From positions 1 to 51,775 of the IMG/VR virus record IMGVR_UViG_3300021067_000053: 51,775 nucleotides of DNA. One strand, 5' to 3'. The stretch is from a virus. The first letter of the stretch is position 1, and each line of letters starts with the position of its first letter. The translations under genes were made by a program, and so were the position numbers. Below are positions 448 to 50,964 of this stretch, piece by piece. A model generated the notes under the pieces. The model was given only the letters and a program-made list of their open reading frames with translations. It searched no databases and was not told the origin of the DNA.

Positions 448-1272
448 TCACTTCCCTTCCCGGTGGGGGCACGGCTTCATGCCCTTGCTCCTGTCGTCGG
501 GGTCGCCCCAGACGAAGCCGGGGGTTTCGGTGCAGAGGTCGCAGACGGTCGGCGCCGCGGCGGCCGGGGCGGGGGCGGCGCGGGCCGCGTCGAGGATTGA
601 GAAGATGCAGTACCGGAAACCGTTGATGGTGTGCCCCGCCTCCCGCGCCCGGCGCGGCGCGTCGATAATCCCCCGCTCTATCGCCGACTCGTCCAGGTGC
701 GCGATCTCCGAATACGCTTCGAGGTCTTTGGCCTTCACGGTTCGGCCCGTGACTTCCGTGTACCGCGCCATCAGCCTCCGGGTCTTTTCGTCGTTAATAT
801 TTAATAAGTTATTAAGTTCTTTATTAATTAATGTGGTTGTCTGGTTAACTGGGCGACTGGTTAACTGGTCGTCTGGTTGACTGGTTAACCAGTCCATCGC
901 ATATTCCACGGCATCCTGAAAGTCTTTGAAAATGTGGCGGCGCTGGAAGTGCCAGGCCTCGTAGGCGTCTAACTTCTTGGCGGGGAAGCGGATACCTTTG
1001 AGGCGGCGCTCGACGCGGGACGGGAAGAGTGATTCGTCCGGCTGGTTGACTGGTTGACTGGTTGACTGGTTAACCAGCGGGGAGGACTCTTTGACGACTC
1101 GCGGGGCGGTTAACTGGTCATCCAGTTTGGTTGACTGGTTGACCGGAGTGGTTGACCAGTCAACCACGGGCTCCGGCTTCGGCGGCAGTTCTCCAAAGCC
1201 GAGCACCCGCTTCGGAGCGGGCTTCGGTTCAAGGTCCATCAGGGCGTTACCGCCCTTGAATTTGTCGGCCAT
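448..1272 (-). CDS. Putative replication protein carrying an internal iteron array
   Basis: A 274-residue protein whose ATG at 1272 overlaps the stop of the upstream ATPase (TAATG) and has a GGAGG ribosome binding site. It contains a conserved-looking block (about residues 90-135: basic, aromatic), low-complexity linkers built from an 8-residue period (VNQSTSQP-like) and a C-terminal helical block (about residues 165-230) that resembles DnaD or helicase-loader C-terminal domains in style. The last 40 residues hold two CxxC-like pairs. The linkers are where the DNA carries TGGTTGAC-type repeats, so their amino-acid sequence is probably dictated by the DNA sites. The pairing with a AAA ATPase suggests initiation or helicase loading. 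The family assignment is inference; the gene itself is clear. Confidence 0.65.
   Translation of the reverse strand: MADKFKGGNALMDLEPKPAPKRVLGFGELPPKPEPVVDWSTTPVNQSTKLDDQLTAPRVVKESSPLVNQSTSQPVNQPDESLFPSRVERRLKGIRFPAKKLDAYEAWHFQRRHIFKDFQDAVEYAMDWLTSQPDDQLTSRPVNQTTTLINKELNNLLNINDEKTRRLMARYTEVTGRTVKAKDLEAYSEIAHLDESAIERGIIDAPRRAREAGHTINGFRYCIFSILDAARAAPAPAAAAPTVCDLCTETPGFVWGDPDDRSKGMKPCPHREGK
791..1166. other. Candidate replication origin: AT-rich tract plus 8-bp iterons
   Basis: An AT-rich stretch (about 790-835) sits inside otherwise GC-rich DNA. Next to it lie eleven copies of TGGTTRAC, starting at 842, 858, 874, 882, 1043, 1051, 1059, 1067, 1128, 1136 and 1149. A near copy is at 1107 and an inverted copy at 1159-1166. 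The copies at 842-889 and 1043-1074 are in strict 8-bp register. The layout (iterons beside an AT-rich unwinding tract inside a replication gene) is like lambda ori inside gene O. It is predicted only from sequence. Confidence 0.6.
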
Positions 1273-2051
1273 TAGAGCACCGCCTCCGTCGTCGCCAGCG
1301 CGGCCACCTCGGCGTCCACGCCCGTCAGCTCGTTCATGCGGGAGAGCTCGAAGGCGACGGCGGCCACCTTCAGAATCTCGCGGGGCACGCCGCCCGTGGC
1401 GTCGTAGATGGTCTGAATGGCGTCGTCGGTGAAGGGGAAGGGGATGTCGGCCTGCTCGCACCGGAATTCGAGCATGGCCTTCGTCTCGCCTAGGGTGAGG
1501 GGCGCGAGCACCGAGGGGGCGAATATGCGCGAGCGGATGGCCTTCTGGCTGGGGTCAAGGAGCCTTTCGCGCAGTTCAATTTGCCCGGCCAGCACGATCT
1601 GGATGAGCTTCGCCGTGTTCGTCTCGTAGTTGAGCATGGCGCGCACTATCTCAAGCATGGTGTTCCTGAGCCGCTGCGCCTCGTCGATGAAGACCACGAC
1701 GTTCTTGCCGTCCCGGTGCTGTTCAATGAGGAAGGCGCGCAGCTCCACCTCCTGCGCCTGGTAGGAACGTTTGGGGGCGAGGCCGAAGTCGCCCGTTATC
1801 TCTTTGAGGAAGGCGAACTCGGAGGTGGCCGATGGCGTCGGCATGAACGACACCACCATGTCCTCTTTCGCCGCGTAGTCGCCGTAGAGGAGCCTGAGCA
1901 GTGAACTCTTACCCATCCCTACGTCGCCGAGGATGGCCGTCAGCCCTTGCCGCCGGTCTATGGCGTAGCGGGTCTTGTGCAGCGCGGCGCGGATGCCGGG
2001 CGTCTGGTAGAGAAAGCCGGGCGACGGGGAAGTGGAGAAAGGGTCTGTCAT
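1272..2051 (-). CDS. ExeA/TniB-like AAA ATPase
   Basis: A 259-residue P-loop ATPase of the AAA_22/ExeA group. Walker A is GDVGMGKS at residues 42-49 and Walker B VVVFIDEAQ ends with Asp-Glu at 123-124; a sensor-like RSRIFAP segment and a C-terminal helical lid follow. Relatives include ExeA-type secretion ATPases, TniB/MuB-like target ATPases and phage helicase loaders. It lies directly upstream of the iteron-bearing gene with a one-base overlap, so helicase loading or origin remodelling is the most likely role here. The ATG at 2051 is chosen because the sequence before it is not protein-like; its ribosome binding site is weak. Confidence 0.8.
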   Translation of the reverse strand: MTDPFSTSPSPGFLYQTPGIRAALHKTRYAIDRRQGLTAILGDVGMGKSSLLRLLYGDYAAKEDMVVSFMPTPSATSEFAFLKEITGDFGLAPKRSYQAQEVELRAFLIEQHRDGKNVVVFIDEAQRLRNTMLEIVRAMLNYETNTAKLIQIVLAGQIELRERLLDPSQKAIRSRIFAPSVLAPLTLGETKAMLEFRCEQADIPFPFTDDAIQTIYDATGGVPREILKVAAVAFELSRMNELTGVDAEVAALATTEAVL

Positions 2052-2195
2052 GCGGCGTATGCTAACGGGCCACGGGTGAAAAATCAATCCAATTTCAGCG
2101 CGCCAAAGCAAAATCAGATGTTATTTTCCAACTTGGTGTGGTGTTTCGGGTGTAAAATAGTAACCAGTTCGGAACTGCCGAAAGGGGAGGCGGAA

Positions 2196-2573
2196 GTGGC
2201 AATAACCATCATCTCGGGCGGTCGCCATCACAGAGACCCGAACATCGTGGACGCGGCGGTGAGGGCGTCCGGGTATGTCGTGACGGCAGTCATCGAAGGA
2301 GGCCAGCGCACGAGAGACGCCGAGACGCGCGAGATCGTCGGCGGGGTGGACTACTTCGCCCGCCTGTGGGCCGAGGCGCGCGGCATCCCCGTCGAGACGA
2401 TGGAGGCGGACTGGGGGCGCTACCGAAAGTTGGCCGGGCCCATACGCAATGAAGCGATGGCGATGGTCGGCGAGCAGTTGATAGCCATACCGGACGAGGA
2501 GAGCCACGGCACCTGGGACATGGTGCGCAAGGCGAAGAAGCGCGGGCTGCCCGTGTTCGTCTTCAGAGGGTGA
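2196..2573 (+). CDS. SLOG-family protein (DUF2493/YspA-like)
   Basis: A 125-residue Rossmann-like protein starting at GTG 2196 behind a strong GGGGAGG site. It shows the SLOG signatures: a hydrophobic strand ending in SGGRHHRD near the N-terminus and AGPIRNEAM in the second half, which in this family contact a nucleotide-type ligand. Such proteins are common in phages and near other SLOG/YspA systems, where they are thought to sense or process nucleotide derivatives. It is transcribed divergently from the ATPase; the 144-base gap between them must hold both promoters. Confidence 0.8.
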   Translation: MAITIISGGRHHRDPNIVDAAVRASGYVVTAVIEGGQRTRDAETREIVGGVDYFARLWAEARGIPVETMEADWGRYRKLAGPIRNEAMAMVGEQLIAIPDEESHGTWDMVRKAKKRGLPVFVFRG

Positions 2574-2627
2574 GTCCGCCGCCCCGCTGACCTAAGCGCG
2601 ACGGCCGGGGTGAAGGGAGAGGGAGAC

Positions 2628-2930
2628 GTGGACTACACGATGACGACGCCTTGCGGGGCGTGCCCATTTCTAAAGAAGTACGCGCACGCCTTCACGCTCC
2701 GCAGGTTGGAGGAGTTCGCCGCCGGCGAGTTCCCCTGCCACAAGACGGCCGCGGAAGAGGAAGGCGAGGACGGCTCAGTCTCCTTCGTCGCGCGGCGGGA
2801 GAGCCTGCACTGCGCCGGGGCGCTCATCTTCAACGAGAAGCGAGAGCGGCCGAATCAGATGATGAGGATATGCGAGCGGCTGGGGATGTATGACGCGGCG
2901 GGGCTGGATATGTCGGCCGACGTTCGCTGA
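2628..2930 (+). CDS. Cys-rich small phage protein (DUF6283-like)
   Basis: About 100 residues. The N-terminus has TPCGACPF and a FPCH motif follows about 35 residues later, with a third Cys in LHCAGALIF: a metal-binding arrangement seen in the DUF6283 family of phage proteins. GTG 2628 is preferred because a GGAGAGGGAG site lies just upstream; ATG 2639 is the alternative. It is part of a run of small plus-strand genes (2196-3486). Function unknown. Confidence 0.7.
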   Translation: MDYTMTTPCGACPFLKKYAHAFTLRRLEEFAAGEFPCHKTAAEEEGEDGSVSFVARRESLHCAGALIFNEKRERPNQMMRICERLGMYDAAGLDMSADVR

Positions 2931-2974
2931 CCGCCGCCCGCCCGCCGACCGTAGGCGACGAAGAGGAGGAGAGG

Positions 2975-3190
2975 ATGCCCGACATCAAACTGCTGCCGTG
3001 CCCCTTCTGCGGTCGCAAGCCTTCACTGAGGAAGGGGATGCGACACCAGAAAGACGGCTACTACCATTGGCAGCCCCGCGCGGGAGCATGGCGCTGGCGG
3101 CCCGCCGTCAGGTGTACGACCTGCAAGTTCGACCGCGAGTTCGAGAGCGTGGACGAGGCCGTCGCTTGGTGGAATAAGCGTGCGGCCTGA
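2975..3190 (+). CDS. Lar-like zinc-ribbon protein (restriction alleviation family)
   Basis: A 71-residue protein with the pattern LPCPFCGRKPSL at the N-terminus, CTTCKF in the middle and AVAWWNKR at the C-terminus, which is the hallmark of the Lar restriction-alleviation family. In Rac prophage, Lar modulates type I restriction-modification; most homologues in phages are untested. Start ATG 2975 has a strong AGGAGGAGAGG site. With the methyltransferases elsewhere in the window it may help evade host restriction. Confidence 0.85.
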   Translation: MPDIKLLPCPFCGRKPSLRKGMRHQKDGYYHWQPRAGAWRWRPAVRCTTCKFDREFESVDEAVAWWNKRAA

Positions 3191-3234
3191 ATCGCGCGCC
3201 GCCCTTCGGGGGCCGGCGGGGAGGGGAAGAAGGG

Positions 3235-3486
3235 ATGGCTCGATTACGCGTTTGCTCCACGTCCGACATGGCCTTCATGGTCAACCCGCAGCCCCTACAG
3301 CGCACGCTCCGCGTGACGGGCAGGAACTTCGTCGCGGGGGCGGTCTTCGAGAAGCCCCCCGGCGAGGTGTGGCGGCTCAAGGAGGCCGCGCCGATTCTGC
3401 GCTGGATGCACAAATGCGATTCGCTGCAAGAGGTGGCGCGGCAACTTGAGCGGCGCCGATGTAAGTGGGAGTGGCTGGACGCCTGA
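3235..3486 (+). CDS. Hypothetical phage protein (83 aa)
   Basis: Unrecognised. ATG 3235 follows GGGGAAGAAGGG. The protein is basic, with a central WRLKEAAPILRWM helix and a C-terminal Trp-rich end (RRCKWEWLDA). It is the last protein gene before the long gene-free stretch. Confidence 0.65.
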   Translation: MARLRVCSTSDMAFMVNPQPLQRTLRVTGRNFVAGAVFEKPPGEVWRLKEAAPILRWMHKCDSLQEVARQLERRRCKWEWLDA

Positions 3487-3559
3487 CACGTCCGCGCCCG
3501 CCCCTCGTGCGGGAGTGAGCGGGGAAGCGGAAGGCGTATTTCGGGCAGGCTGCGGGATT

Positions 3560-4060
3560 CCCTTCAAGGAAGGAAAGCGTTTGTAGGTTATGCGTCCGAC
3601 GGTAAGAGGGGGTAGGGATTTACGACTGCTGACCGACGTGCGTATCGAAGGTTTATTTACCGACCTGACGCCTGTGGGGGTGGTGCCCCGTTGGCCCTTA
3701 CTTTGGAGACGGGCGTATCCCGCTGCGCTGGATCAACCCTTACCGGCTGCGAGCAACCGACCAGCACGTTGCCGTCTAAAACCTCGTGGGAAAACCTTCT
3801 TGCGTGTCAGTCCAAAAGCCCCCTTCGTAGCTAAGCAGTCTGCGCATGGGGTATGCGACCCTGCGCGTTACCCTGCGAGCGGCGCGGTGGAAGCCCGAGT
3901 CTCAGGGCGTGGCGCGTGGCTGTGTTTTTCAGGTGGACGCAGCCGAGCAACCTCTGATAGCCTTAGGGCCGTCAGTTACCGTCGGGTTAGCCCCGGTGGT
4001 CAAGTGGGCGGGTGGAGCGCAGGTGTCAGCCAAGTAGCTCCAACCCGCCCGTCTCTTTTT
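3560..4060 (+). ncRNA. Candidate large structured RNA (about 500 nt)
   Basis: Positions 3487-4255 lack a protein-like frame; the only long plus-strand frame has no plausible composition and runs through a terminator. The stretch is full of short inverted repeats, for example cgcat/atgcg at 3843-3857 and gggg/cccc around 3677-3690, and ends in a strong intrinsic terminator (4006-4060). Size, position among phage genes and the terminator resemble the ornate large phage RNAs (GOLLD and ROOL classes), but I cannot match it to either. The 5-prime end is a guess. The remainder (4061-4255) shows nothing beyond the upstream region of the next gene. Confidence 0.55.
4006..4060 (+). terminator. Intrinsic terminator of the candidate RNA
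   Basis: gggcgggtggagc at 4006-4018 pairs with gctccaacccgccc at 4037-4050 (13 pairs, one bulged A), then gtctcttttt. Confidence 0.8.
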
Positions 4061-4255
4061 CCCCGCAAAAGAAAGACGCCCTGTCGCCGTGAACGGTCGG
4101 CTAAGAGCGTCATCTTTGCGTCGTGTTGAGAGCGGCGCGATGGCCGTTCATTTCCAACGCGACGCGAGCGAACTAGACACGCAAATTCTACCACAGGTTG
4201 GGGTTCTTTGCGCGGCAAAGTGTTAAAATATACAAGAAAAAATTCGGAGGTTTCG

Positions 4256-4831
4256 ATGTCCGCAACATTCGCTTCGCTTGAAGAAGAGAGGGACTACTGG
4301 AAGGCGTGCCTGCTCGCGGCGGTGGACGTTTCCGACGCGGGCATCTACCCGGCGTCGTACAACGGCGTGCCGCGAGACGAGTGGAAGGATGGCTTCAACG
4401 AAGGTGCTTCGCAGGTCGAGGAGAAGCTGGCCGAGTTTGTTGATAAGTGCGTGGAGCCGAGCGCCGACTGGCCTATGCGGGTTCACCTGATGGGTGCCGG
4501 GCAGGCTTTCTTCGGGTCACAGGGTTTCGCCGCACTGTGCAGCGACATTTTCGCGTGGGGCTGCGCTGACGCCGAGTGCGTGACCGACGAAGAACTACCT
4601 GACCTCTACGCCGCGTGGAAGGCAGACAACAAGTGGGGCGCGGCGAAGTGGTGCTGCCTCAAGCGCAACCAGAAGCCGCAAGCCCCCGTCGAGCGCGACA
4701 TGCGGGCCGATGGCGCGTGGGACGAGGCGATGGAAGCGCTGCCCGAGAATCGCTATGACGCAGCACGGAGGGAGTATCACGCGAAGAAGGCGGCAGAAGC
4801 CGTCGCCTGCGTGCCCGACCCGCAGCCTTGA
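4256..4831 (+). CDS. Hypothetical phage protein (191 aa)
   Basis: Unrecognised, acidic, 191 residues. ATG 4256 has a CGGAGG site at 4245-4250 and an AT-rich -10-like ttaaaat at 4223-4229 upstream, so it probably has its own promoter. The N-terminus (ATFASLEEERDYWKACLLAA) is helical; a Trp/Cys-rich middle (residues 105-150) and a charged C-terminal helix follow. No catalytic motif is visible. Confidence 0.75.
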   Translation: MSATFASLEEERDYWKACLLAAVDVSDAGIYPASYNGVPRDEWKDGFNEGASQVEEKLAEFVDKCVEPSADWPMRVHLMGAGQAFFGSQGFAALCSDIFAWGCADAECVTDEELPDLYAAWKADNKWGAAKWCCLKRNQKPQAPVERDMRADGAWDEAMEALPENRYDAARREYHAKKAAEAVACVPDPQP

Positions 4832-21322: not shown

Positions 21323-22054
21323 GTGCCAGCCAAAGGACGCAAGGACCTGACGAAGTACGCCACCACAAACTGCCCAACTTGCGAGGTTGAGTTCGAATAT
21401 CTTCGAAGTTGGCCGCGCAAATACTGTTCGAACGTGTGTGCGGGTCGGGCTAACGCTTCGAACTTGGGGAATCACTTCACGCCGAGCCGATTCGCTACAA
21501 CCTGCCAGCAATGCGGCGTAGGCTTTGAAACCACGCCGACGCGCACGCGCGGGCGCTTCTGTTCTCTTGAGTGCTTCGGCGCGTGGCAGTCTGAGAATGT
21601 GCGGGGCGACGCGCACCCGAACAAGGGCAAGAAGTTCGGCCGCCCTGCGAACGCCGGGGAGCCCGTCTACAAGAAGTGCGAAGTCTGCGGCAAAGACTTT
21701 CTGACAAAAGCCAGCCACGCTGCCCGCCGCAAATGCTGTTCGAGGCTGTGCCTCGGCGCCCTGTTCACCCTCACTCTTCGCGGCGAGAGCAACCCGCATT
21801 GGAAGGGCGGCTATGAACCCTACTACGGCCCAACGTGGCGACGCGCGCAGCGCGAGGCGCGCAAGCGGGACAAGGTATGTCAGGACTGCGGCAAGACGCG
21901 CTCCGATTGCGGGCGAGCGTTGGACGTTCACCACATCACCCCTTTTCGCGTTTTCGGTCTGGAACGTCATGCCGAAGCTAATAACCTTTCGAACCTTGTG
22001 GCGCTCTGCCAGTCCTGCCATTTGAGGCGTGAGCCTCGGAAGAAAACCGCTTAG
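21323..22054 (+). CDS. Free-standing HNH homing-type endonuclease with three zinc fingers
   Basis: A 243-residue protein on the strand opposite to the tail genes. Three tandem zinc-finger-like units come first (Cys 17/20/35/39; 61/64/80/84; 119/122/139/143). The HNH nuclease follows: C186, C189, H203-H204, N220-N221 and C229, C232, H233. Zinc fingers followed by HNH is the architecture of phage homing endonucleases. It has its own promoter, no ribosome binding site and interrupts the conserved order of tail tube and tail terminator, so it is most likely a mobile insertion. The GTG start is fixed by the promoter. Confidence 0.88.
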   Translation: MPAKGRKDLTKYATTNCPTCEVEFEYLRSWPRKYCSNVCAGRANASNLGNHFTPSRFATTCQQCGVGFETTPTRTRGRFCSLECFGAWQSENVRGDAHPNKGKKFGRPANAGEPVYKKCEVCGKDFLTKASHAARRKCCSRLCLGALFTLTLRGESNPHWKGGYEPYYGPTWRRAQREARKRDKVCQDCGKTRSDCGRALDVHHITPFRVFGLERHAEANNLSNLVALCQSCHLRREPRKKTA

Positions 22055-24541: not shown

Positions 24542-25630
24542 TTACGAGATGGTGTTGATGACAGCGATGGCCTCGGGCTCGGTGATGACGGGCAGCGCCG
24601 TCTGCCACCCCTCGGCCTCGATGCGCGGCGGCTTGTCGTCCTTCGCCTCCATGCGGATGACCCGGCCGGGGCCGGTCTGCCCGGCGGCGCGCCCGACGGC
24701 CATGTAGCCGAGCGTGTCGGAGACGATCTGCTGCGAGTCGCCGAGGTCGAGGGCTTCGTCCTGGCCCGTCGTCGCCACCATCACGAAGGCGTCGCGCGCG
24801 AGGAAGTAGCCCGTGCCCGTCTGAGTCCTGTACTGGAGGTCGTACTGCTCGATGGCGGGCAGGCCGTCGCGCGCCAGCGCCCGGTTGATGCCGTCGAGGT
24901 CCGCCCTCGCCTGCGAGACCGAGATGGTGCCGCCCACGTTCACTACGGGGAGACCCGTGCGCGCCTTCACCTTGTCGTTGCCGGCGAGGATGGAGACGAC
25001 CGTGCGCCCCGCGAAGATGCGGTTGACCGTGTAGCCCTTCGACGCCAGCAGGTCGGCCTGCGCGAGGATGTCGGTGAACGGGTCGTAGGCGTCCGACGAC
25101 CAGGTGCCGCCCGCGGCGGCGCGGTGCCCCGCCGGGTCCGAGTAGGCGACCGCCTCCGAGTAGGCGTTGTCGCCCGAGCGGGTGACGGAGGCCCCGACGA
25201 TGGCGTCCCAGCGCTGCTTCTCGTTCAGCTCAAGGAGCGCCCGGTTGACCGTGGTGTCGAGCCAGCGGGTGACGCGCGCCACGCCCTCCATCGAGAGGTT
25301 CTGGCCGAGCACCTTCAGGAGCGTGTCGTACTGCCGGCCGTCCATCTCGCGGGCGATGTCGGACTCGCCGAGCACGACGAGGAAGGAGCCCACGAGGTCC
25401 GCGCCCTTCTTCTGCGTCGGGCTGTAGCGCGTGCCGGAGTTGGCGATGACCGTGCGGTACTTGATCTGGTCTTCCTGGTACTCATTCTGCTCGACCGTGC
25501 GCTCGGGCAGAATCTCCGCGCCGAGGTAGCGGCGCGTGGGCGGGCCGAACTGCGCGAGGGGGCGGCGGGCGAGTCGCGCGACCGTCCCGTCCGACATCAT
25601 CGTGTTGATGAGCGAATAAAGGTCTGCCAT
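24542..25630 (-). CDS. Major capsid protein (phage capsid E family)
   Basis: A 362-residue protein with the features of the lambda gpE-type capsid family: an N-terminal arm, a conserved-looking RTVIANSGTRYSPTQKKGADLVG loop, the helix near NRALLELNEKQRWDAIVG, VNRIFAGRTVVSILAGNDKVKAR, and a C-terminal VITEPEAI-type strand. It follows a decoration protein and a scaffold in the standard head order. ATG 25630 has a nearby purine-rich site. Confidence 0.85.
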   Translation of the reverse strand: MADLYSLINTMMSDGTVARLARRPLAQFGPPTRRYLGAEILPERTVEQNEYQEDQIKYRTVIANSGTRYSPTQKKGADLVGSFLVVLGESDIAREMDGRQYDTLLKVLGQNLSMEGVARVTRWLDTTVNRALLELNEKQRWDAIVGASVTRSGDNAYSEAVAYSDPAGHRAAAGGTWSSDAYDPFTDILAQADLLASKGYTVNRIFAGRTVVSILAGNDKVKARTGLPVVNVGGTISVSQARADLDGINRALARDGLPAIEQYDLQYRTQTGTGYFLARDAFVMVATTGQDEALDLGDSQQIVSDTLGYMAVGRAAGQTGPGRVIRMEAKDDKPPRIEAEGWQTALPVITEPEAIAVINTIS

Positions 25631-25642
25631 CGTTAGCTCCTT

Positions 25643-26266
25643 TTAGGCCGCGCCCCTCGTGGTCACGTAGGTCGCGCGCAACTTCGTCAGCAGGGCGGAC
25701 GAGAGGGACGAGAAGTTCGGCAGGAAGTTCTCCTTCACGACGGAGCCCGGCCGGTAGAGTTCGACGTCGGCGCTGTCGGCCGCGTCCGTCACGTCGAAGG
25801 CGACGATGAGCACTTCGTCGTCGGCGTCCGCCGCGGGGCCGAAGGCCGTCCCCGCGGCCCGCTCCGCGAAGGTGCGCCCGACGAGCGTCCCGGCCTCGAT
25901 GCGCTTCGGGTTCGTCCCGACGCCCGCGTAGCGCGCCTCGTCGTTGTCTTCGAGGGCGGAGGGGAGCGCCTGGACGGCGATGGAGGTGGCCCCGGCGGCG
26001 GCGGCGGCCGTCGTCAGCGCGAACTCCTTGGACTCGCCGAAGTAGAGCTGCGTCCCCGACGGGATCGCGCCCGTGAGCGCGTCCACGCTGATGCTCGTCG
26101 CGTCGGCCGCCGCCGCGGCGCTCAGCTTCACGAGCACGCTGTCGGTGGCGAAGAACTGCGCCGCGTCCACCCTCGCGCCGCCCGGCACCAGGTGGTTGCG
26201 GTCAAGGAAGTCGCCCGCCCACACGGGGCTCGTCAACTGGTTCGCGTTCGTCGTGACTTTTGCCAT
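25643..26266 (-). CDS. Capsid decoration / stabilisation protein
   Basis: A 207-residue Ala/Val-rich beta protein with AGGAACCCGAG before ATG 26266. The middle part repeats an alternating motif (AAADATSISVDAL, then AAAGATSIAVQAL), and the second half (AGTLVGRTFAERAAGT...) resembles decoration proteins that sit next to gpE-type capsid genes. Located directly upstream of the capsid gene. Confidence 0.75.
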   Translation of the reverse strand: MAKVTTNANQLTSPVWAGDFLDRNHLVPGGARVDAAQFFATDSVLVKLSAAAAADATSISVDALTGAIPSGTQLYFGESKEFALTTAAAAAGATSIAVQALPSALEDNDEARYAGVGTNPKRIEAGTLVGRTFAERAAGTAFGPAADADDEVLIVAFDVTDAADSADVELYRPGSVVKENFLPNFSSLSSALLTKLRATYVTTRGAA

Positions 26267-26281: not shown

Positions 26282-27025
26282 TTAGGCTTGCGCCTGTCTG
26301 GCCTTCGGCGCGCTGTCCACGCTGGCGAAGTAGGCGTCCGCCGGGCTCGCCTTGCCCCCGCCGCCCCCCGCCCCGTGCTCGGGCAACTCCGTCCCGTCCG
26401 GCTGCTTCTGCGCGGTCAGGGAAGGCAGGAGGGCGGTCAGCGCGGGTGTGGACTTGATGACCTCGGCGAAGGGCTTTTCGACGAATGAGCCGTCGGCCTG
26501 CTTCACCTTAGCCACCGCCTCTTTCTTGCCGTCCTGCCCGTCCCGCAGTTGCACTTGAGACAGGTCGAACACGGCCGGCACGAGCAGGCCGGTCTTCTCC
26601 TTGTCCCACTGCATGACCCCGCCGACCTCGGCCGCGTGCTTCGCCTTCTCGGCCTCTTCCGCCTTCGACTTGTAGTCGCCGTGCTCGGTCTTGAGCGTGG
26701 CGAAGGCGGCGGCGTCGGCGATGCCGGCGGCCTTCACGGCGCGCGCCAGTTCCGCGTCCGCCTTCGGCACCGCCTCCTGCCCGCGCGGGACGGTGCTGGC
26801 GTTTGCGAGCTGCCCTTCGAGTTCGGCGATGCGCGTGTCCTTGGCGGCGATCTGGGTGTCGTGGTTCGCAACCTTCGTCAAAAGCTCCGAACGCTTCGAG
26901 AGGAGGCCGTCGAGCGAGTCAACGCCCTCGACCTGCAACTCCCACCTGTCGCCCTTCTGGACGTAGAAGCCTTTCTGTTCCGTAGGAATGTCGGCTTCTG
27001 ATTGATAGCTTCTTTTCAGCGGCAT
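26282..27025 (-). CDS. Capsid scaffold protein
   Basis: A 247-residue protein, mostly helical: coiled-coil segments at about residues 38-75 (KRSELLTKVANHDTQIAAKD...) and 90-130, and a hydrophilic C-terminus with a GAGGGGGKASP linker. The N-terminus (MPLKRSYQSEADIP) and the middle (TGLLVPAVFD) are shared by phage scaffolds of this kind. Position between portal/protease and capsid supports the call. Confidence 0.72.
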   Translation of the reverse strand: MPLKRSYQSEADIPTEQKGFYVQKGDRWELQVEGVDSLDGLLSKRSELLTKVANHDTQIAAKDTRIAELEGQLANASTVPRGQEAVPKADAELARAVKAAGIADAAAFATLKTEHGDYKSKAEEAEKAKHAAEVGGVMQWDKEKTGLLVPAVFDLSQVQLRDGQDGKKEAVAKVKQADGSFVEKPFAEVIKSTPALTALLPSLTAQKQPDGTELPEHGAGGGGGKASPADAYFASVDSAPKARQAQA

Positions 27026-27163: not shown

Positions 27164-27466
27164 TTACGCTGCGGGCTGAAGGCGGTGGCTGTAACGCTTC
27201 GTCGCCTCGCGCTGAATGTGGGCGCAGTCGCCGCAGAGCGTGGGCGTGGCCTTCCCGTTCCTGCCGTCCTCGCGCGCCCCGCCGCAGCCCACGCACAGAC
27301 CCCTCTCCCGCCACTCGTTCCGGTTGGCCGCGTTGCGCTCCGCCTGCCTTTGGCTGTGGGCCGCCGCGTGCTCAGGGCAGCGCTCGCGCGTCCCCTCGTC
27401 GGTGCGGGGCTCGCCGCAGTCCCGGCAGAGACCTTGCCCGATTCGCTCTTGTCGAAGGTTAGGCAT
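27164..27466 (-). CDS. Small zinc-ribbon protein in the head operon
   Basis: A 100-residue basic protein with CRDCGEP, CVGCGGA and CGDCAH motifs separated by Arg/Asn/Gln-rich helices, similar in style to the product of 6056-6328. ATG 27466 has GGAGG eight bases upstream and is preferred over the start 15 bases further out. It lies between the Ntn hydrolase and the scaffold. Function unknown. Confidence 0.68.
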   Translation of the reverse strand: MPNLRQERIGQGLCRDCGEPRTDEGTRERCPEHAAAHSQRQAERNAANRNEWRERGLCVGCGGAREDGRNGKATPTLCGDCAHIQREATKRYSHRLQPAA

Positions 27467-27502
27467 CGAGCCGGCCTCCAATACTGTTGGAGAGTTCTAC
27501 GG

Positions 27503-28090
27503 TCAACGCTTGGCCCTCCTCACGCGCGTGCTCTCGAATGTGAAGGGCGCCCTAATGCCGTCCTGCCAGCGCTCGGCGGCCTCCAGTGCGATCTTTAGTC
27601 TCTCCCGCGGGGTTAGCGCCGCCCCTGCCGCGGCGAGGGCGTGCAGCGCCCCCAGCGCCACCTCATGCCCCGAGCCCGTGGCGTTGAACTCGTCCACGGT
27701 GCGGTAGGCGGAGAAGGAGCAGTCCATCAGGTAGAGCGACCCGCGGACACCTATGAGCAGCGAGCCGCCGAAATCCTCCTGCTGTGTCTCTTCGTCCTTG
27801 CCTATGCAAGACTGCTCCTCGAACAGTTTGCGGAGTGAAGAGGCGAAGGCGCTGTTCATGTAGCGGTCAACGCTCTCGGGCCGCGAGCCCTCGAACCGAA
27901 TCTTCGGCGGGCGGAAGTTGTAGCGGATGAGGTCGTTGACGCGCGACGAGCCGGAGCCGCCCATAATGAACTCGCCCGTGCGCCACACCTTCCCGGCCGC
28001 GACAAGTTTCGGGACGGTGCCGTGTGTGGCCGCGCTGTCACCGCCGATGTGGACGACGCCGCCCTGCGCTATGCCGACGATGCAGGTCAC
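27503..28090 (-). CDS. Proteasome/HslV-like Ntn hydrolase, candidate head protease
   Basis: A 195-residue protein of the HslV/20S proteasome beta fold. After removal of Met1, the mature protein would begin with Thr1. Counting from it, Asp17 (IGGDSAAT) and Lys33 (AAGKVW) fall exactly at the catalytic positions of proteasomal subunits, and a GSG motif lies at 138-140. The C-terminal helices align in order with HslV. The ATG overlaps the end of the portal gene by four bases and the gene fills the slot between portal and scaffold where the prohead protease normally lies. No ClpP-, S14-, S49- or U35-type protease is visible elsewhere, so it may mature the capsid. That role is inference. Confidence 0.85.
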   Translation of the reverse strand: MTCIVGIAQGGVVHIGGDSAATHGTVPKLVAAGKVWRTGEFIMGGSGSSRVNDLIRYNFRPPKIRFEGSRPESVDRYMNSAFASSLRKLFEEQSCIGKDEETQQEDFGGSLLIGVRGSLYLMDCSFSAYRTVDEFNATGSGHEVALGALHALAAAGAALTPRERLKIALEAAERWQDGIRAPFTFESTRVRRAKR

Positions 28091-29751
28091 GCCGGCAACC
28101 CCTCCCCGGTCTTATCCTCCACCGCCGGGTTGAGGGGCGACGCTATGCCCGCGTCGGCCTTCGCCTTCTTCTCCTGAAGGATGGCCTCCTTCATCGCGTC
28201 CGGGTCGGCGATGCCGATGTACTGCATACCCTCCTCTTCGCTCTTGAGACCCGCCTTGATCTCTTCGAGGTTGATGCGCCGGTCTTCACTGTCGAGCGGG
28301 CCGGGGTCCACCCGGCAGTCGAAGGAGACGCGCACCCCGTCGAAGTAGCCCGGACGCCCGGCGAAGATGGCGGTCAGGGAAAGGAAGGTCTCCATCACCG
28401 CGGAGCCGACGTAATCCACTTCGGATTTCGTCTCGTCGAGACTCTTCTTGTAGTCGTCGCGCGCCTGCTTCCGGCTCTCGCCCGACGAGGCGGCGTCGCC
28501 CGCGATCTGCACGTGGAGCTGGTCGGTGTCTTCGAGGATGTTGCGGTAGGCTTCCGAGGCCGTGTCGGTGTAGGACTTGACCGGAACGGGGTCCGTCACC
28601 TCGCGGGACGGGGTGGCGAGGTGGGTGATTACTTTGCCCGTCGCCTCGTCCCGCTCCGTGTAGGCGATGCCGCGGACGAACTTGACCGCGCCGGGGCCTT
28701 TGTCCAGAGGCTCGGAGCCTCTGACGAACGCCTCCACCTGCTTGCCGGACCCGTCGGGGTCGTCAATCATCACGGTCTTGCCCGGGGGCTGGGCGTTCAG
28801 GTAGACCTCCTCGCGGAAGCCCGCCTCGTCCATGTTGTGCGAGAGCATGGTGAGCGCCTTGTCCAGGAGCTTCTGGTTGCGCTTCACCGGCTCCGTAATC
28901 AGCGGCTCGCCGTCCAGCTCGAACAGCGTCAGGTTGCCGTTCAGGGCCAGGGACGCGTCGGGCTTCGGCGCGTCGCCGGTCAGGTAGTCCCTGGCCCTCT
29001 GCGCCAGGCCGGGGGCCTGCGCCGTGAGCGCCGACGAGCCCTCGCGGAGCGTCCTGACGACGGTCTTACCCTCGTCGTTCAGGTAGCAGAGCCCGACGGC
29101 GGGCCTGCCCTCCCTGTCCTCGAAGGTGTAGACCCCGGCCCTCCTCATGCTCCACGTGTCCAGGACGACCGCGGCCTCCGTGGGCTTGGGCGCGAGCAGG
29201 AAAACCCGCCTGGCGGCATCGTGGAGCGAAAGGAGGGGCATCCTGCCGCCCTTCAGCTCCGCGGGCGGCCAGTAGAGGCGCAACGGCCCGCGCCCGACGG
29301 CGTTAAAATGGGTGACGGCCTTGCGGAACTCGCGCAAGGCCCGCTGGCGGTTCCACCAGTCGAGGAGGAGTTCCTGCGCCTGCTCTATGGCGGTCTGCTC
29401 CTCGGTGGTCGGCGTCTCGTCCACCCGCTCGCCCTCGGGCGTGGTGACCTTCCTGAGCTTTCTGCGCAGCCCCACCATCCAGCCGGGCTCGCGCCCCACC
29501 ACACCGCGGCGGTGCCGGCGGATGACCGAAGGGATGGCGCCCTTCGACGTGAAGTCGCGGGAGATGCCCTCCTTGATGACGTTGGCGGCCTTGTCGCCGC
29601 CCCTGAACTGCGGCCCCGACCACCCCTCGCCCTCCTGCCAGTTGTCGTGCTCGACGACGTAGCGCAGGGTGGCGTCGTCGCCCTGCCGCTGGCGGGAGTT
29701 GAGCGCCTGAAGGGCTTTGTTGTAGTCCCACTCGTCGAAGATGACTGGCAT
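28087..29751 (-). CDS. Portal protein (SPP1 gp6-type)
   Basis: A 554-residue portal. The N-terminal half (VIKEGISRDFTSKGAIPSVI, HFNAVGRGPLRLYW), the wing/stem region with LTLFELDGEPLITEPVKRNQK, and the long helix near GDAASSGESRKQARDDYKKS are typical of SPP1-like portals. It forms the twelve-subunit ring at the packaging vertex and docks the terminase. Directly after the large terminase. Confidence 0.88.
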   Translation of the reverse strand: MPVIFDEWDYNKALQALNSRQRQGDDATLRYVVEHDNWQEGEGWSGPQFRGGDKAANVIKEGISRDFTSKGAIPSVIRRHRRGVVGREPGWMVGLRRKLRKVTTPEGERVDETPTTEEQTAIEQAQELLLDWWNRQRALREFRKAVTHFNAVGRGPLRLYWPPAELKGGRMPLLSLHDAARRVFLLAPKPTEAAVVLDTWSMRRAGVYTFEDREGRPAVGLCYLNDEGKTVVRTLREGSSALTAQAPGLAQRARDYLTGDAPKPDASLALNGNLTLFELDGEPLITEPVKRNQKLLDKALTMLSHNMDEAGFREEVYLNAQPPGKTVMIDDPDGSGKQVEAFVRGSEPLDKGPGAVKFVRGIAYTERDEATGKVITHLATPSREVTDPVPVKSYTDTASEAYRNILEDTDQLHVQIAGDAASSGESRKQARDDYKKSLDETKSEVDYVGSAVMETFLSLTAIFAGRPGYFDGVRVSFDCRVDPGPLDSEDRRINLEEIKAGLKSEEEGMQYIGIADPDAMKEAILQEKKAKADAGIASPLNPAVEDKTGEGLPA

Positions 29752-29756
29752 GGCTT

Positions 29757-31274
29757 TTACCCGAAGATTGAATAACTGGTTGAACCGGGGAGGTCAGGCC
29801 CCGTCGAAGCGGGGCGTAACAGGCGCGCCGCGCGGTGCACGGCCATGCTCAGCGCGACGGCCAGGTCAATCTTTTTGGAATACTCCCGCTTCACTATCCG
29901 CAGGCGGCGCCCCTCGTCGTCAACCTTGCGGTCGGCGTTGTCGATGTGCGACCGAAGTTCCGCGTCGCCCCCGTGCGCTATCTGCCGTTGCAGAATCGCG
30001 TCAAGCAACTGCTTGTCGGCTTCGAGCCTCTGCGCCCCCTGGGGGAAGGGGTTGTAGACCGTGACGGGCTTCTGCTTCAGCCTGCGAATCATCTGCCCCA
30101 GGAGCATCGGGTCGTAGGTCAACTCCTGGACGGCGTGGCGCCCGCACAGGTCGCGGATGTCTCGCTCGATTGAGTCGAAGTCAAGGGGCTCGCCCTTGCG
30201 GGGGACGTAGGCGCGCGAGTAGCGCACGGCGAGCACGCCGGCCCGCGCCGGGTGGCGGCTGACGACGACGGTGGCGAAGGTGTCGTTAGACTCCCCGGCG
30301 TCCACCGCCAGCACGCAGGGGGTGTGCGCGTCGAGGGGCGGGAGCTTTTCTTCGCACGCGTCCCAGAGCGCGACCGCGGGCAGGAACCTTTCCGTCCCGC
30401 CCTCCGACCACTGGTTGCGGTGGACGCGCTCGAACTCTTCGGGGGTGGCCGCCAGCGCCGCCCGCTCCTGGTCGTAGTAGGCTTCGGACTGCCACGGGAG
30501 TCTCGGCTCCGTGTTCCACAGGGCGAGGATGCGGGCGCGCCGGTTGGCGAACATCTCCAACTCGTCGTCTATCCGCTCGCCGCCCGTGACGCCCTGCTCG
30601 TAGAGGTTCCAGAGGAGTTTCGACGTGTCCTTGAACCCGGCGTAAGACTCGATCCAGCGGAGAGACTTCCCGAACTTCATCGGGCTCAAGGTCATCTCCG
30701 TCCACATCGTCTCGGCGGCCCTGCCCTTCGCGCCCCACAGTTCGGAGAAGACGATGGTGTCGGCGTTCGACCCGGCCTCGCCCGTCGGGTCAATCGGGAT
30801 GCACTCGACGGTGGTGTGGTTGGGCAGGGTCAGTTTGTAGTTCTTGACCCTGACGAGCGAGCGCATCTCGGGGTGCAGTTCGACGGCCCGGCGGATGTAG
30901 TAGCCGACGCGGGAGTCCGCCTGCTTCAGGTCGTTGGCGATGACGTAGTGCTGCCCCCACTCGGATTGCCACGCGCGGTAGAGCACGACGGCCGCGGCGA
31001 TGGTTGACTTGATGGACTTCTTGATGTCCGACCAGACGATTGTCGAGTAGTTGAACAGGCCGTCTTCGTCTTCGGAGAGGGCTTCGCGGAGAACCTTCTG
31101 TTGATAGCCGGCGAGGACAAGCGGGCCGCGTAGTTCGGGGACGTAGAAGTGAGATTGTATCCAGTCAATCGCGTCGGGGCCGACGAACTGCGCGCAGCCG
31201 TCCGACCAGTCACCGCCGATAATCAGCGGGACTTCCCGTTCGAGCCTGCTTACTGTCGTCTCGGACGCGCTCAC
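29757..31274 (-). CDS. terL: Terminase large subunit
   Basis: A 505-residue packaging motor. Walker A-like SDIKKSIKST lies at about residues 82-91 and the Walker B acidic Glu in TIVFSELW at about 173-180. The RNase-H-like nuclease domain begins at VLAVDAGESND (Asp325) and ends in KIDLAVALSMA. The Walker A is degenerate, as in many terminases (no classical GKT). It overlaps the small subunit by four bases. Confidence 0.92.
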   Translation of the reverse strand: MSASETTVSRLEREVPLIIGGDWSDGCAQFVGPDAIDWIQSHFYVPELRGPLVLAGYQQKVLREALSEDEDGLFNYSTIVWSDIKKSIKSTIAAAVVLYRAWQSEWGQHYVIANDLKQADSRVGYYIRRAVELHPEMRSLVRVKNYKLTLPNHTTVECIPIDPTGEAGSNADTIVFSELWGAKGRAAETMWTEMTLSPMKFGKSLRWIESYAGFKDTSKLLWNLYEQGVTGGERIDDELEMFANRRARILALWNTEPRLPWQSEAYYDQERAALAATPEEFERVHRNQWSEGGTERFLPAVALWDACEEKLPPLDAHTPCVLAVDAGESNDTFATVVVSRHPARAGVLAVRYSRAYVPRKGEPLDFDSIERDIRDLCGRHAVQELTYDPMLLGQMIRRLKQKPVTVYNPFPQGAQRLEADKQLLDAILQRQIAHGGDAELRSHIDNADRKVDDEGRRLRIVKREYSKKIDLAVALSMAVHRAARLLRPASTGPDLPGSTSYSIFG

Positions 31275-31660
31275 GCCCTTTTCAGTTTCCTTTCCGCCAC
31301 AAGCGCCTCAAGCCGCTTCACACGCTCAATCAGCTCGGCCTGTTCGATGGCCTTCTGCGTCAGGTTCAGGATGGCGAGGGCCGCCGCGTTGGACGCGAAA
31401 TCGTTCTCCGAGTCCAGATTCTTTATCAGCGTGTCTACGGCCTTTTCGTTCGCCGCCTGCAACTTCCCGACCGCCGAATCAACGATGCTCCGCTGCGCGG
31501 CCTGTAGCGCGCCCTTGAACTCCTCCTCCTGCATCCAGCGCCACAGAGTCATTTCGGTGACGCCGGCCGCCTTAGCCGCCGCCGCGGTTGTGCTCTCGGT
31601 GATAAGAGCCGCGATGGCCTTTTGCTGTTTTGGCGTCACACCCCACCCCGGACATAACAT
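31271..31660 (-). CDS. terS: Terminase small subunit
   Basis: A 129-residue DNA-recognition protein. Helix-turn-helix at about residues 20-45 (STTAAAAKAAGVTEMTLWRWMQ) followed by an oligomerisation helix region (residues 55-125) with LTQKAIEQAELIERVKRLEAL. Start at ATG 31660; a GTG eight codons later is possible. It binds the packaging site and feeds DNA to the large subunit. Confidence 0.85.
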   Translation of the reverse strand: MLCPGWGVTPKQQKAIAALITESTTAAAAKAAGVTEMTLWRWMQEEEFKGALQAAQRSIVDSAVGKLQAANEKAVDTLIKNLDSENDFASNAAALAILNLTQKAIEQAELIERVKRLEALVAERKLKRA

Positions 31661-41720: not shown

Positions 41721-42485
41721 TCACGCCGTCAGTTCGAGAACGCCCTGCGCCAGCCTATCGGCCGCTTCCTCGCAATACTTCTCTTCAATCTCAATCCCGA
41801 TGGCCTTGCGACCGCGAACCTTCGCCGCCACTAAAGTCGTACCGCTGCCCATGAAGGGGTCAAGGATAGTTTCGCCCGGGTCGCTGAACAGAACCGTGAG
41901 CTCGCGCATCAGAGCCTCCGGCTTCGGGCAAGGGTGATTCGGCCTGTTCTTTTTCACCGTACCGAAGTGCCACACCGCCGGGTGCCCGCCGCCGTTCCAG
42001 CGCATCGGCCCCTGCGCGTGCGCAATCGTGCAGGGTTCGAAACCCACGGCGGGGCGGTCGCCGCTGAACTGCGGCATCGGATCATGCTTGACCCAAGCGC
42101 CCGTGCGAACGTAGCGCAGGCCGGCGGCCTCGAGGGCGATACGCCACAAGTGGCAAGTCTCAACGTCGCTGAAGACGAGCGCCCAACGGCGGACTAGTCG
42201 CCCGATCTCCGCGGCGACGGCATCAAGCATGTCGTCAATGTGGCCGATGGCCCCGGCCGCAAGCTTTTCAATGGATACACTGGAGTATTGATGATTGCGG
42301 ATTCCGAGACGGGCAGGGGTGCCGCTCCCGGCGTTCGTGTGAGGGGAGCGCAGCCGCCGATACACGTCGCGGGAGTAAGGGGGATCGGTAAGTACCACGC
42401 TTACCGCCTCGAGGTGTGGCAACACCTCCCGGCAATCGCCGTGATAAATCGTGCTGCTCTCGTCTTGGTAGTAAGGCTTCAGCAT
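41721..42485 (-). CDS. DNA amino-methyltransferase (N4/N6, beta class)
   Basis: A 254-residue methyltransferase. The catalytic DPPY is at residues 34-37 and the S-adenosylmethionine-binding DPFMGSGTT begins at 209; the order catalytic-then-cofactor motif marks the beta class. It probably methylates adenine-N6 or cytosine-N4 at a fixed site, protecting phage DNA from host restriction. No cognate endonuclease is visible next to it. It is the first of two or three methyltransferases in the window. Confidence 0.88.
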   Translation of the reverse strand: MLKPYYQDESSTIYHGDCREVLPHLEAVSVVLTDPPYSRDVYRRLRSPHTNAGSGTPARLGIRNHQYSSVSIEKLAAGAIGHIDDMLDAVAAEIGRLVRRWALVFSDVETCHLWRIALEAAGLRYVRTGAWVKHDPMPQFSGDRPAVGFEPCTIAHAQGPMRWNGGGHPAVWHFGTVKKNRPNHPCPKPEALMRELTVLFSDPGETILDPFMGSGTTLVAAKVRGRKAIGIEIEEKYCEEAADRLAQGVLELTA

Positions 42486-44750: not shown

Positions 44751-45518
44751 TCAGGCGGCACGCTCCGCTCGCGTTTCGAGGTGCGCCATCACCTGACGCC
44801 CGAGAAATTCGCCATAGGCCGGGGGAATGGCTTGCGAAATCTCGCCCCAATCCATCCAGTCAATGCCGAGCAGTTCGCGGGCCAAGCGCATCTTGAGTTC
44901 TTTGCCGACAATATCCGTGCCCCGGTGCGTGCCGTTGGCCCGCCTGCGAATGCGTGCGTGGTCTCCGTAGAAACCGACCACGGGCTGTGAGCCGTGACGG
45001 CAAGCGGGCTGGGTGAGCCAAACGTTCGACTCGAACAGCCGATGCCTTCTGAGTTGGTACTCGTCCGTGAAGAGGCCGAACATGCTCCCGCAGAGCACGA
45101 CGCCGTTGACCTTGCTAAACAGTGAAGGGGGGCCGACTGTGAGCGGAGCACCTTCGACGTTCTCAATAATCCAGGGGAGCCCCGAGGCCGTCAGGCGCTC
45201 CCGTATCGGTTCGACGAGTTCGGGGTGGCTTGGGCGGGCGTTCGACATCACGCGCATGTCGCTGTATGCCTGACACGGTGGCGACGCCCATATGAAATCG
45301 AAGCCCGACAGGTCGAACGTGAGCGCGTCGGCCTGAATGAAACGGAACGGGTACCGCGGCTGCGGCTCGATGTCCACGCCCGTCACGTCGAAGCCCGTGC
45401 GGTACAGTCCCATCGAAGCCCCGCCGGCCTTGCAGAACAGGTCGAGCGCCTGGAAACGCCGCCCGGCCTCCATCTCGTCGGGGTGCTGTGGCGCCGGGGT
45501 GGCGGTAGGGGTGGTCAT
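44751..45518 (-). CDS. DNA cytosine-5 methyltransferase
   Basis: A 255-residue C5 methyltransferase: motif I LDLFCKAGGASMG (25-37), catalytic Cys82 in SPPCQAYS (motif IV), ENVEG (motif VI, 119-123), and a C-terminal motif X-like segment (PPAYGEFLGRQV). It is short because the target-recognition region is compact, as in many phage enzymes. Likely protects against host restriction. Confidence 0.88.
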   Translation of the reverse strand: MTTPTATPAPQHPDEMEAGRRFQALDLFCKAGGASMGLYRTGFDVTGVDIEPQPRYPFRFIQADALTFDLSGFDFIWASPPCQAYSDMRVMSNARPSHPELVEPIRERLTASGLPWIIENVEGAPLTVGPPSLFSKVNGVVLCGSMFGLFTDEYQLRRHRLFESNVWLTQPACRHGSQPVVGFYGDHARIRRRANGTHRGTDIVGKELKMRLARELLGIDWMDWGEISQAIPPAYGEFLGRQVMAHLETRAERAA

Positions 45519-50095: not shown

Positions 50096-50311
50096 ATGAG
50101 GTCGAACGGAAATCAGATCGCAGAGTTACTACCCGAAGACGCCGTGCGCGCCGCCTTCATGCGGGGCGTCGAGGGGCTGCCCGAGGCGGAGCGCGAGCGG
50201 CTGTATACGGAACACCAAAAGCGGGTGAGGCGGTTCCTGGGGTTTCTAAAGGATGCCGAGTGCTACGTCGCGGCGGGGCGGCCGGCAAGGGACCGGGAGA
50301 GTGAGACATGA
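50096..50311 (+). CDS. Hypothetical helical protein (71 aa)
   Basis: ATG 50096 follows GAGGTGAGCG. Charged helical protein with DAVRAAFMRGVEGLPEAERERLYTEHQKRVRRF. Overlaps the next start by four bases (ATGA). Confidence 0.62.
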   Translation: MRSNGNQIAELLPEDAVRAAFMRGVEGLPEAERERLYTEHQKRVRRFLGFLKDAECYVAAGRPARDRESET

Positions 50312-50964
50312 ACGCGCCACTTTTTAACCCCCCGGACGGACCCGTGGCCGTCTTCCTCTGCGACCGCACGGGCATAGCCGCGGAGCCCTGGGCGGCGGCG
50401 GGCGTCGAGTGCTGGTGCGTAGACCTCCGGCATCCCGTCCGCCGCGACCGCCGCGAAGGCAACATAAATTTCGTGTGGGGCGACGTGCGTTCGTGGGCGC
50501 CCCCGGAAGAGATTCGCGGCCGGATAGTCTTCGGCGCGGCCTTCCCGCCGTGCACGAACCTCGCGGTCAGCGGCGCGCGGGATTTCGTGAAGAAGGGGCT
50601 GCACGTGCTCACGGACGCCCTGGAGACGTTCGCGGCCTGCGAGCGGGCCTTCGCCTGGGCGGGCTGCCCCTACTTCGTCGAGAACCCCGTCGGGGTCGTC
50701 TCGACGCACTACCGCAAACCCGACTTCACCTTCGAGCCGTGGCAGTACGGCGACAGCTGGACGAAGAAGACCCATCTGTGGGCGGGGGGTGGGTTCGTGA
50801 TGCCGGAGCCGGCGGTGAAGGAGAGGCCGGAGGGCGTGACGCAGAAGATATGGCTGATGCCGCCTTCGGCCGAGAGGGCGGACCTGCGGGGCGAGACGCC
50901 GAGGGGCTTCGCCAGGGCGGTCTACGAGGCCAACGCCGCGGCCGCACTGAAGCGTGCGGCCTGA
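50308..50964 (+). CDS. Cytosine-methyltransferase-like protein
   Basis: A 218-residue protein. A cofactor-type start (GPVAVFLCDRTGIAAEPWAAAG), a DL..P strand pair and PPCTNLAVSGA (Cys82, where the catalytic Cys of C5 enzymes lies) match the Dcm superfamily, and ENPVG at about 150 replaces ENV. Several other C5 motifs are weak, so activity may be different or lost. Commonly annotated as DNA cytosine methyltransferase in phages. Confidence 0.72.
   Translation: MNAPLFNPPDGPVAVFLCDRTGIAAEPWAAAGVECWCVDLRHPVRRDRREGNINFVWGDVRSWAPPEEIRGRIVFGAAFPPCTNLAVSGARDFVKKGLHVLTDALETFAACERAFAWAGCPYFVENPVGVVSTHYRKPDFTFEPWQYGDSWTKKTHLWAGGGFVMPEPAVKERPEGVTQKIWLMPPSAERADLRGETPRGFARAVYEANAAAALKRAA

Follow-up and report, generated by a model that had tools for sequence, protein, structure and literature searches.

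Phages are known to carry proteasome homologs to which no function has been assigned. A family survey described two kinds, AAH (alpha-proteobacterial/actinobacterial homolog, which also occurs in phages) and PPH (phage proteasome homolog), as phage-borne group I proteasome homologs, and found that their genomic context gave no pointer to function and included no AAA+ partner (Fuchs, Alva and Lupas 2021; PMC8665760). The proteasome-like family also includes connectase, which is a ligase (PMC8665760). The betaproteobacterial proteasome homolog BPH assembles into 14-mers with active sites facing inward; it binds epoxomicin, and no unfoldase is apparent for it (PMC5777263). We looked for papers that treat phage-borne proteasome homologs or the maturation of the head in this connection and found nothing beyond this family survey and annotations.

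Here we analyze a gene for such a homolog in a viral record of 51.8 kb (IMG/VR record IMGVR_UViG_3300021067_000053, positions 1 to 51,775), the whole of which we refer to as the window. An initial annotation had suggested that the protein may mature the capsid, which would make it a new class of head protease, and had named an accessory proteolysis function as the alternative. We find instead that the gene is most likely an optional helper rather than a new capsid-maturation protease, because related phages either lack it or carry an ordinary protease beside it.

The Ntn hydrolase gene lies between portal and scaffold

We confirmed an ORF of 195 codons at 27503-28090 on the minus strand, which begins with a GTG codon that directly adjoins the codon for the N-terminal Thr. 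Its start shares four bases with the portal stop (GTGA, in which the portal stop is TGA). The gene has a late-operon placement, and its neighbors are those that had been claimed for it, with the order TerS, TerL, portal, Ntn hydrolase, small Cys-rich ORF, scaffold, decoration-like protein and Phage_cap_E capsid:

31271..31660, minus strand: terminase small subunit (TerS)
29757..31274, minus strand: terminase large subunit (TerL)
28087..29751, minus strand: portal protein, identified from its position and its relatedness to the portals in records L005, L036, L037, L038, L040, L041 and L058
27503..28090, minus strand: proteasome-like Ntn (threonine) hydrolase, 195 aa, catalytic T1/D17/K33, GTG start overlapping the portal TGA
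27164..27481, minus strand: Cys-rich small ORF, 105 aa, between the Ntn gene and the scaffold gene
26282..27025, minus strand: scaffolding protein, GP20-type (phrog_206, E 1e-4)
25643..26266, minus strand: decoration-like protein (phrog_35470), conserved with the capsid gene
24542..25630, minus strand: major capsid protein, Phage_cap_E family, 362 aa, with no N-terminal delta-domain extension

The window portal itself matches nothing in PHROG or Pfam, and we found no protease domain in the scaffold protein. A 71-aa Cys-rich ORF similar to that of the window occupies the same gap between Ntn gene and scaffold in L005 (5980-6195); each of the two records of this head lineage that carry an Ntn gene has one. 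We also noted an HNH-type ORF on the plus strand (21323-22054), opposite to the late block in which it lies and probably an inserted mobile endonuclease, as well as three DNA methyltransferases in the window (41721-42485, 44751-45518 and 50308-50964).

Active site, predicted fold and family

In mature numbering, with the Met removed, the protein has the T1, D17 and K33 that the initial annotation had pointed out, and the oxyanion Gly is also present, so that the catalytic set is complete. There is no upstream start, and the protein is therefore without a propeptide. T1, K33 and the oxyanion Gly (precursor residue 44) were each found in 75/75 non-redundant relatives, and position 17 was D in 73 of these and E in the other 2; for the IMG/VR rows, the search pattern itself partly fixed T1, although T1 also held in 10 rows obtained free of that pattern.

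The protein matches PHROG_1040, the "peptidase HslV family" (E 2.6e-17, residues 1-158), and has a sub-threshold match only to the Pfam Proteasome model. With phmmer, BPH was the sole PDB family reached by sequence (5ovu, E 0.03). A single-chain AlphaFold prediction, for which 23 locus relatives were added to the window protein, was confident (pLDDT 92.9, pTM 0.89), and the model has a beta-sheet core with two predicted flanking helix pairs (helices 49-58, 74-92, 142-153 and 161-175). The best Foldseek matches for this model were BPH and HslV (E about 1e-11); alignment with VIA-align to BPH 5ovs gave a Z of 22.2 and an rmsd of 2.1 Å over 176 residues, and HslV (Z about 20) and 20S beta subunits (Z about 18-20) also aligned over the whole length. 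As judged from its nucleophile set and modeled fold, the protein is a proteasome/HslV/BPH-type Ntn hydrolase, and this part of the initial annotation stands.

The protein resembles HslV (ClpQ) in fold, in catalytic residues, and in having a compact subunit without a C-terminal helix. By its sequence, however, it does not appear to be HslV proper, as it falls below the curated cut-offs of the NCBIfam HslV models (137 and 158 bits), none of which reports it even at E 0.1, and we found no HslU in the record (the AAA_2 model [PF07724] matched nothing in the window; a host could supply one). An AAA_2 unfoldase of the HslU/ClpX type scored above the cut-off in one of 21 records. BPH (PDB 5ovs, 5ovt, 5ovu; PMC5777263) is the best solved match, over the full length, and like the window protein it has no dedicated unfoldase, but the two share only about 20% sequence identity and BPH is a betaproteobacterial chromosomal gene.

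The family has already been described, both as the PHROG "peptidase HslV family" and as the AAH/PPH of Fuchs et al. 2021. The window protein shares with AAH/PPH the proteasome-like core, Thr1, Asp17, Lys33, the oxyanion Gly, the lack of a propeptide, the occurrence in Caudovirales, and the lack of an AAA+ partner nearby. PPH is defined by a length of about 140 residues and by the lack of helix H2. At 195 residues, and with all four core helices (helix 74-92 included) in the model, the window protein does not fit this definition. Judged by the published description, it seems nearer to AAH. We regard it as probably a member of the HslV/BPH-related group I, of the type of the AAH/PPH phage homologs. 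The PHROG_1040 members come from T5-like phages and from Vibrio, Geobacillus and Moorella phages, and have the same catalytic residues as the window protein, which is 24-35% identical to the phage relatives found. Relatives also occur in 42/289 genomes (class of a Xanthobacteraceae MAG), most of these matches being weak.

Ordinary head proteases occur beside the Ntn gene in other phages

Consistent with the initial annotation, we found no S78, ClpP-like or S49 protease with Pfam in the 51.8-kb record, which may be incomplete, and PHROG scans of 20 other window genes yielded no head protease. The count over other phages gave a different result. An S78 head protease is present in 14/43 of the records that we searched and in 21/48 further ones, nearly all of which carry the Ntn gene; S49 is present in two more. 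Thus, although none was found in the window record, other head proteases do occur where the Ntn gene occurs.

The gene orders in several of these records place the two enzymes side by side. L073 and L074 both read TerL, portal (phrog_12), Ntn gene, S78, with portal and Ntn gene overlapping by ATGA; L023 has portal (phrog_21), Ntn gene, and an S78/capsid fusion; L100 has TerL, portal, S78, Ntn gene; L075 has portal, S78, capsid (MCP), Ntn gene; and L087 has TerL, portal (phrog_64), an ORF of 104 aa, Ntn gene, MuF. The slot is thus common to the Ntn gene and to a conventional protease. The S78 (HK97-type) protease shares the slot beside the portal and adjoins the Ntn gene in L073, L023 and L100, but its fold and catalysis are unrelated to those of an Ntn hydrolase; since the two stand side by side, neither replaces the other in those phages. 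In L023, the three genes are consecutive within 583-4741 (the fusion starts at 2708), and the portal is unrelated to that of the window.

The slot is variable among relatives of the window head module

Among records with the same head module, L005 keeps the Ntn gene. Its portal is 58% and its capsid 92% identical to those of the window, and its Ntn protein only 41%; Ntn is the most divergent gene of the head block shared by the window and L005, except for TerL, which aligned only in part. L005 is 8.6 kb long, and both it and L036 are short contigs. In L036 (portal 59% identical), the slot holds only small unknown ORFs, and in L058, a 67-kb contig, portal and scaffold are separated by 42 bp and the slot is empty. 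Neither an Ntn gene nor another recognizable protease was found in the slots of L036 and L058, and no S78 protease was found in L058. In L042, the slot holds a MuF protein. Thus, the Ntn gene is not retained in the slot across the head lineage of the window but varies independently of the head module, and in relatives it is independent of the head-protease function. A capsid profile search identified no bacterial prophages with the window head module.

In L037, L038, L040 and L041, small HExxH ORFs (phrog_1233 or phrog_1365) lie in the slot or near it (L037:5788-6129, L038:3196-3522, L040:7261-7716 and L041:3346-3801), directly downstream of the portal in three of the four. We considered these as alternative proteases, but two have a weak Peptidase_M78 match and the model is poor (pLDDT 59.7), so we do not claim them as such; they are possibly another accessory peptidase in the same slot.

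The capsid protein also bears on maturation. In the 362-aa window capsid, the PF03864 match leaves only about 17 extra N-terminal residues, and the N-arm is conserved from residue 7. By this measure, the window capsid would not belong to a lineage that needs N-terminal processing.

Placement of the gene in isolates and contigs

In the annotated isolates that we examined, the gene is found away from the head module (henriette, Moorella MTATph1, D'Alembert, DSL-LC01 and 1.101.O, as well as R16F, Geobacillus E3, Ochrobactrum OC and Pantoea AAS21), which distinguishes these PHROG_1040 genes from the portal-overlapping gene of the window. Its neighbors there are thymidylate synthase, DHFR, ribonucleotide reductase, deformylase, PhoH or unknown genes; in most of these isolates it stands among nucleotide-metabolism and early genes, and a terminase gene fell within the examined stretch only in DSL-LC01, about 5.5 kb away.

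The spread of the gene is wide but patchy, covering unrelated phages, jumbo phages included, and its loci vary freely. The number of matching INPHARED records was 28 with the window protein as query, 173 with its relative in L073, and 170 with that in the T5-like L052; among the latter two are many phages of Salmonella and Escherichia that are T5-like in size. The INPHARED relatives (H60-H103) include E. coli K-12 phages, such as IrmaTschudi, TrudiRoth and SuperGirl, and the gene is often annotated as hypothetical. In L081, two ORFs match the Ntn profile.

We compared the position of the gene with that of TerL in contigs, some of them short. Among the 29 contigs with a detectable TerL, the Ntn gene was within 6 kb of it in 13, compared to 7.2 expected at random (P 0.011, ignoring kinship); for contigs up to 80 kb, the figures were 13 of 22 and 6.7 expected (P 0.003, again ignoring kinship). 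This enrichment hints at a late or assembly-linked role rather than random cargo. On the Ntn tree, portal-adjacent placement requires four changes, of which supported branches force at least two; within the head module, the gene sits at one place in L073 and at another in its sister L075. Thus, phages appear to have moved the gene into late head operons repeatedly and at shifting places. On its own, the overlap says little about functional coupling, since ATGA comes free to any gene that starts with ATG-AC (Met-Thr).

Discussion

We consider it probable that the gene encodes an accessory proteasome-like threonine peptidase, an optional member of the late operon, and that it is not the head-maturing enzyme for capsid, scaffold or portal. 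The enzyme is probably late-expressed and ring-forming and would work without a phage unfoldase. It would be made together with the portal and capsid proteins and may assemble into a ring chamber like those of BPH and HslV; since the record holds no unfoldase, it may act without a dedicated one, and it could degrade small or unfolded polypeptides, for instance host proteins or those assembly proteins that have failed or been released. Two observations sit less easily with this reading: neither the window, which may be incomplete, nor the 8.6 kb of L005 shows another head protease, and the terminase enrichment (13/29 compared to 7.2 expected) hints at a late or assembly-linked role.

These same observations speak for the view that the Ntn hydrolase is the capsid-maturation protease of this lineage, with scaffold, portal or decoration protein as its target inside the prohead. 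The gene sits between portal and scaffold and overlaps the portal, L005 has the same arrangement, S78, ClpP-like and S49 proteases are absent from the record, and Ntn genes are enriched near terminase elsewhere. We nevertheless think this very unlikely, as L058 and L036 have the same module with neither an Ntn gene nor another recognizable protease in the slot, L073 (with L074) and L023 have the gene in the same position with S78 adjacent, the capsid is without a delta extension, isolates carry the gene outside the head module, and no gene of the block diverges faster, leaving aside TerL, which aligned only in part. On the co-occurrence with S78 and the variable slot content, we reject a new class of head protease. 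A related proposal, that a portal-coupled proteasome-like chamber processes or removes portal, scaffold or maturation peptides during head assembly, with S78 in some phages and alone here, would explain the repeated portal-side placement, but we regard it as unlikely. It is likewise unlikely that the protein is no peptidase at all but an Ntn amidohydrolase or a ligase with a specific small or protein substrate. The precedent is connectase, within the proteasome-like family (PMC8665760), and AAH and PPH are without an assigned substrate; however, the nearest solved folds, over the whole length, are BPH and the peptidase HslV, and the two-helix connectase insertion (S3-S4) is absent from the model.

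Two further possibilities are refinements of the accessory-peptidase reading, so that their likelihoods overlap with it; each is tentative, and we give them about equal weight. The enzyme may be a dispensable quality-control peptidase of head assembly, which removes misassembled portal or scaffold or maturation peptides. The gene recurs next to portal, head protease or terminase, often sharing bases of start and stop codons with its neighbor, and in L073, L023 and L100 it adjoins the protease that would free scaffold or delta peptides; but isolates that carry it outside the head module do not suggest a head-linked substrate, and the Met-Thr start makes an ATGA overlap easy, so that coupling is cheaply reached. 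Alternatively, it may be directed at the host, degrading host regulators or defense proteins or supplying amino acids, with its late-operon place being incidental (moron-like). Such a role would fit the patchy, wide spread over unrelated phages including jumbo phages, the mobility between loci, and the nucleotide-metabolism and early genes that neighbor it in isolates, but enrichment in the late module is less expected in that case and we saw no defense-related neighbors.

A new class of head protease would have been striking, but it is not borne out. For a family whose function is unassigned, adjacency to the head module in unrelated modules is a contextual clue, and we note its recurrence next to portal or terminase as a new, if modest, finding. 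With the gene placed next to portal, head-protease and terminase genes, a late role at the time of assembly becomes open to test, and since relatives are carried by E. coli K-12 phages of T5-like size, the function of the gene can be examined in standard laboratory strains.
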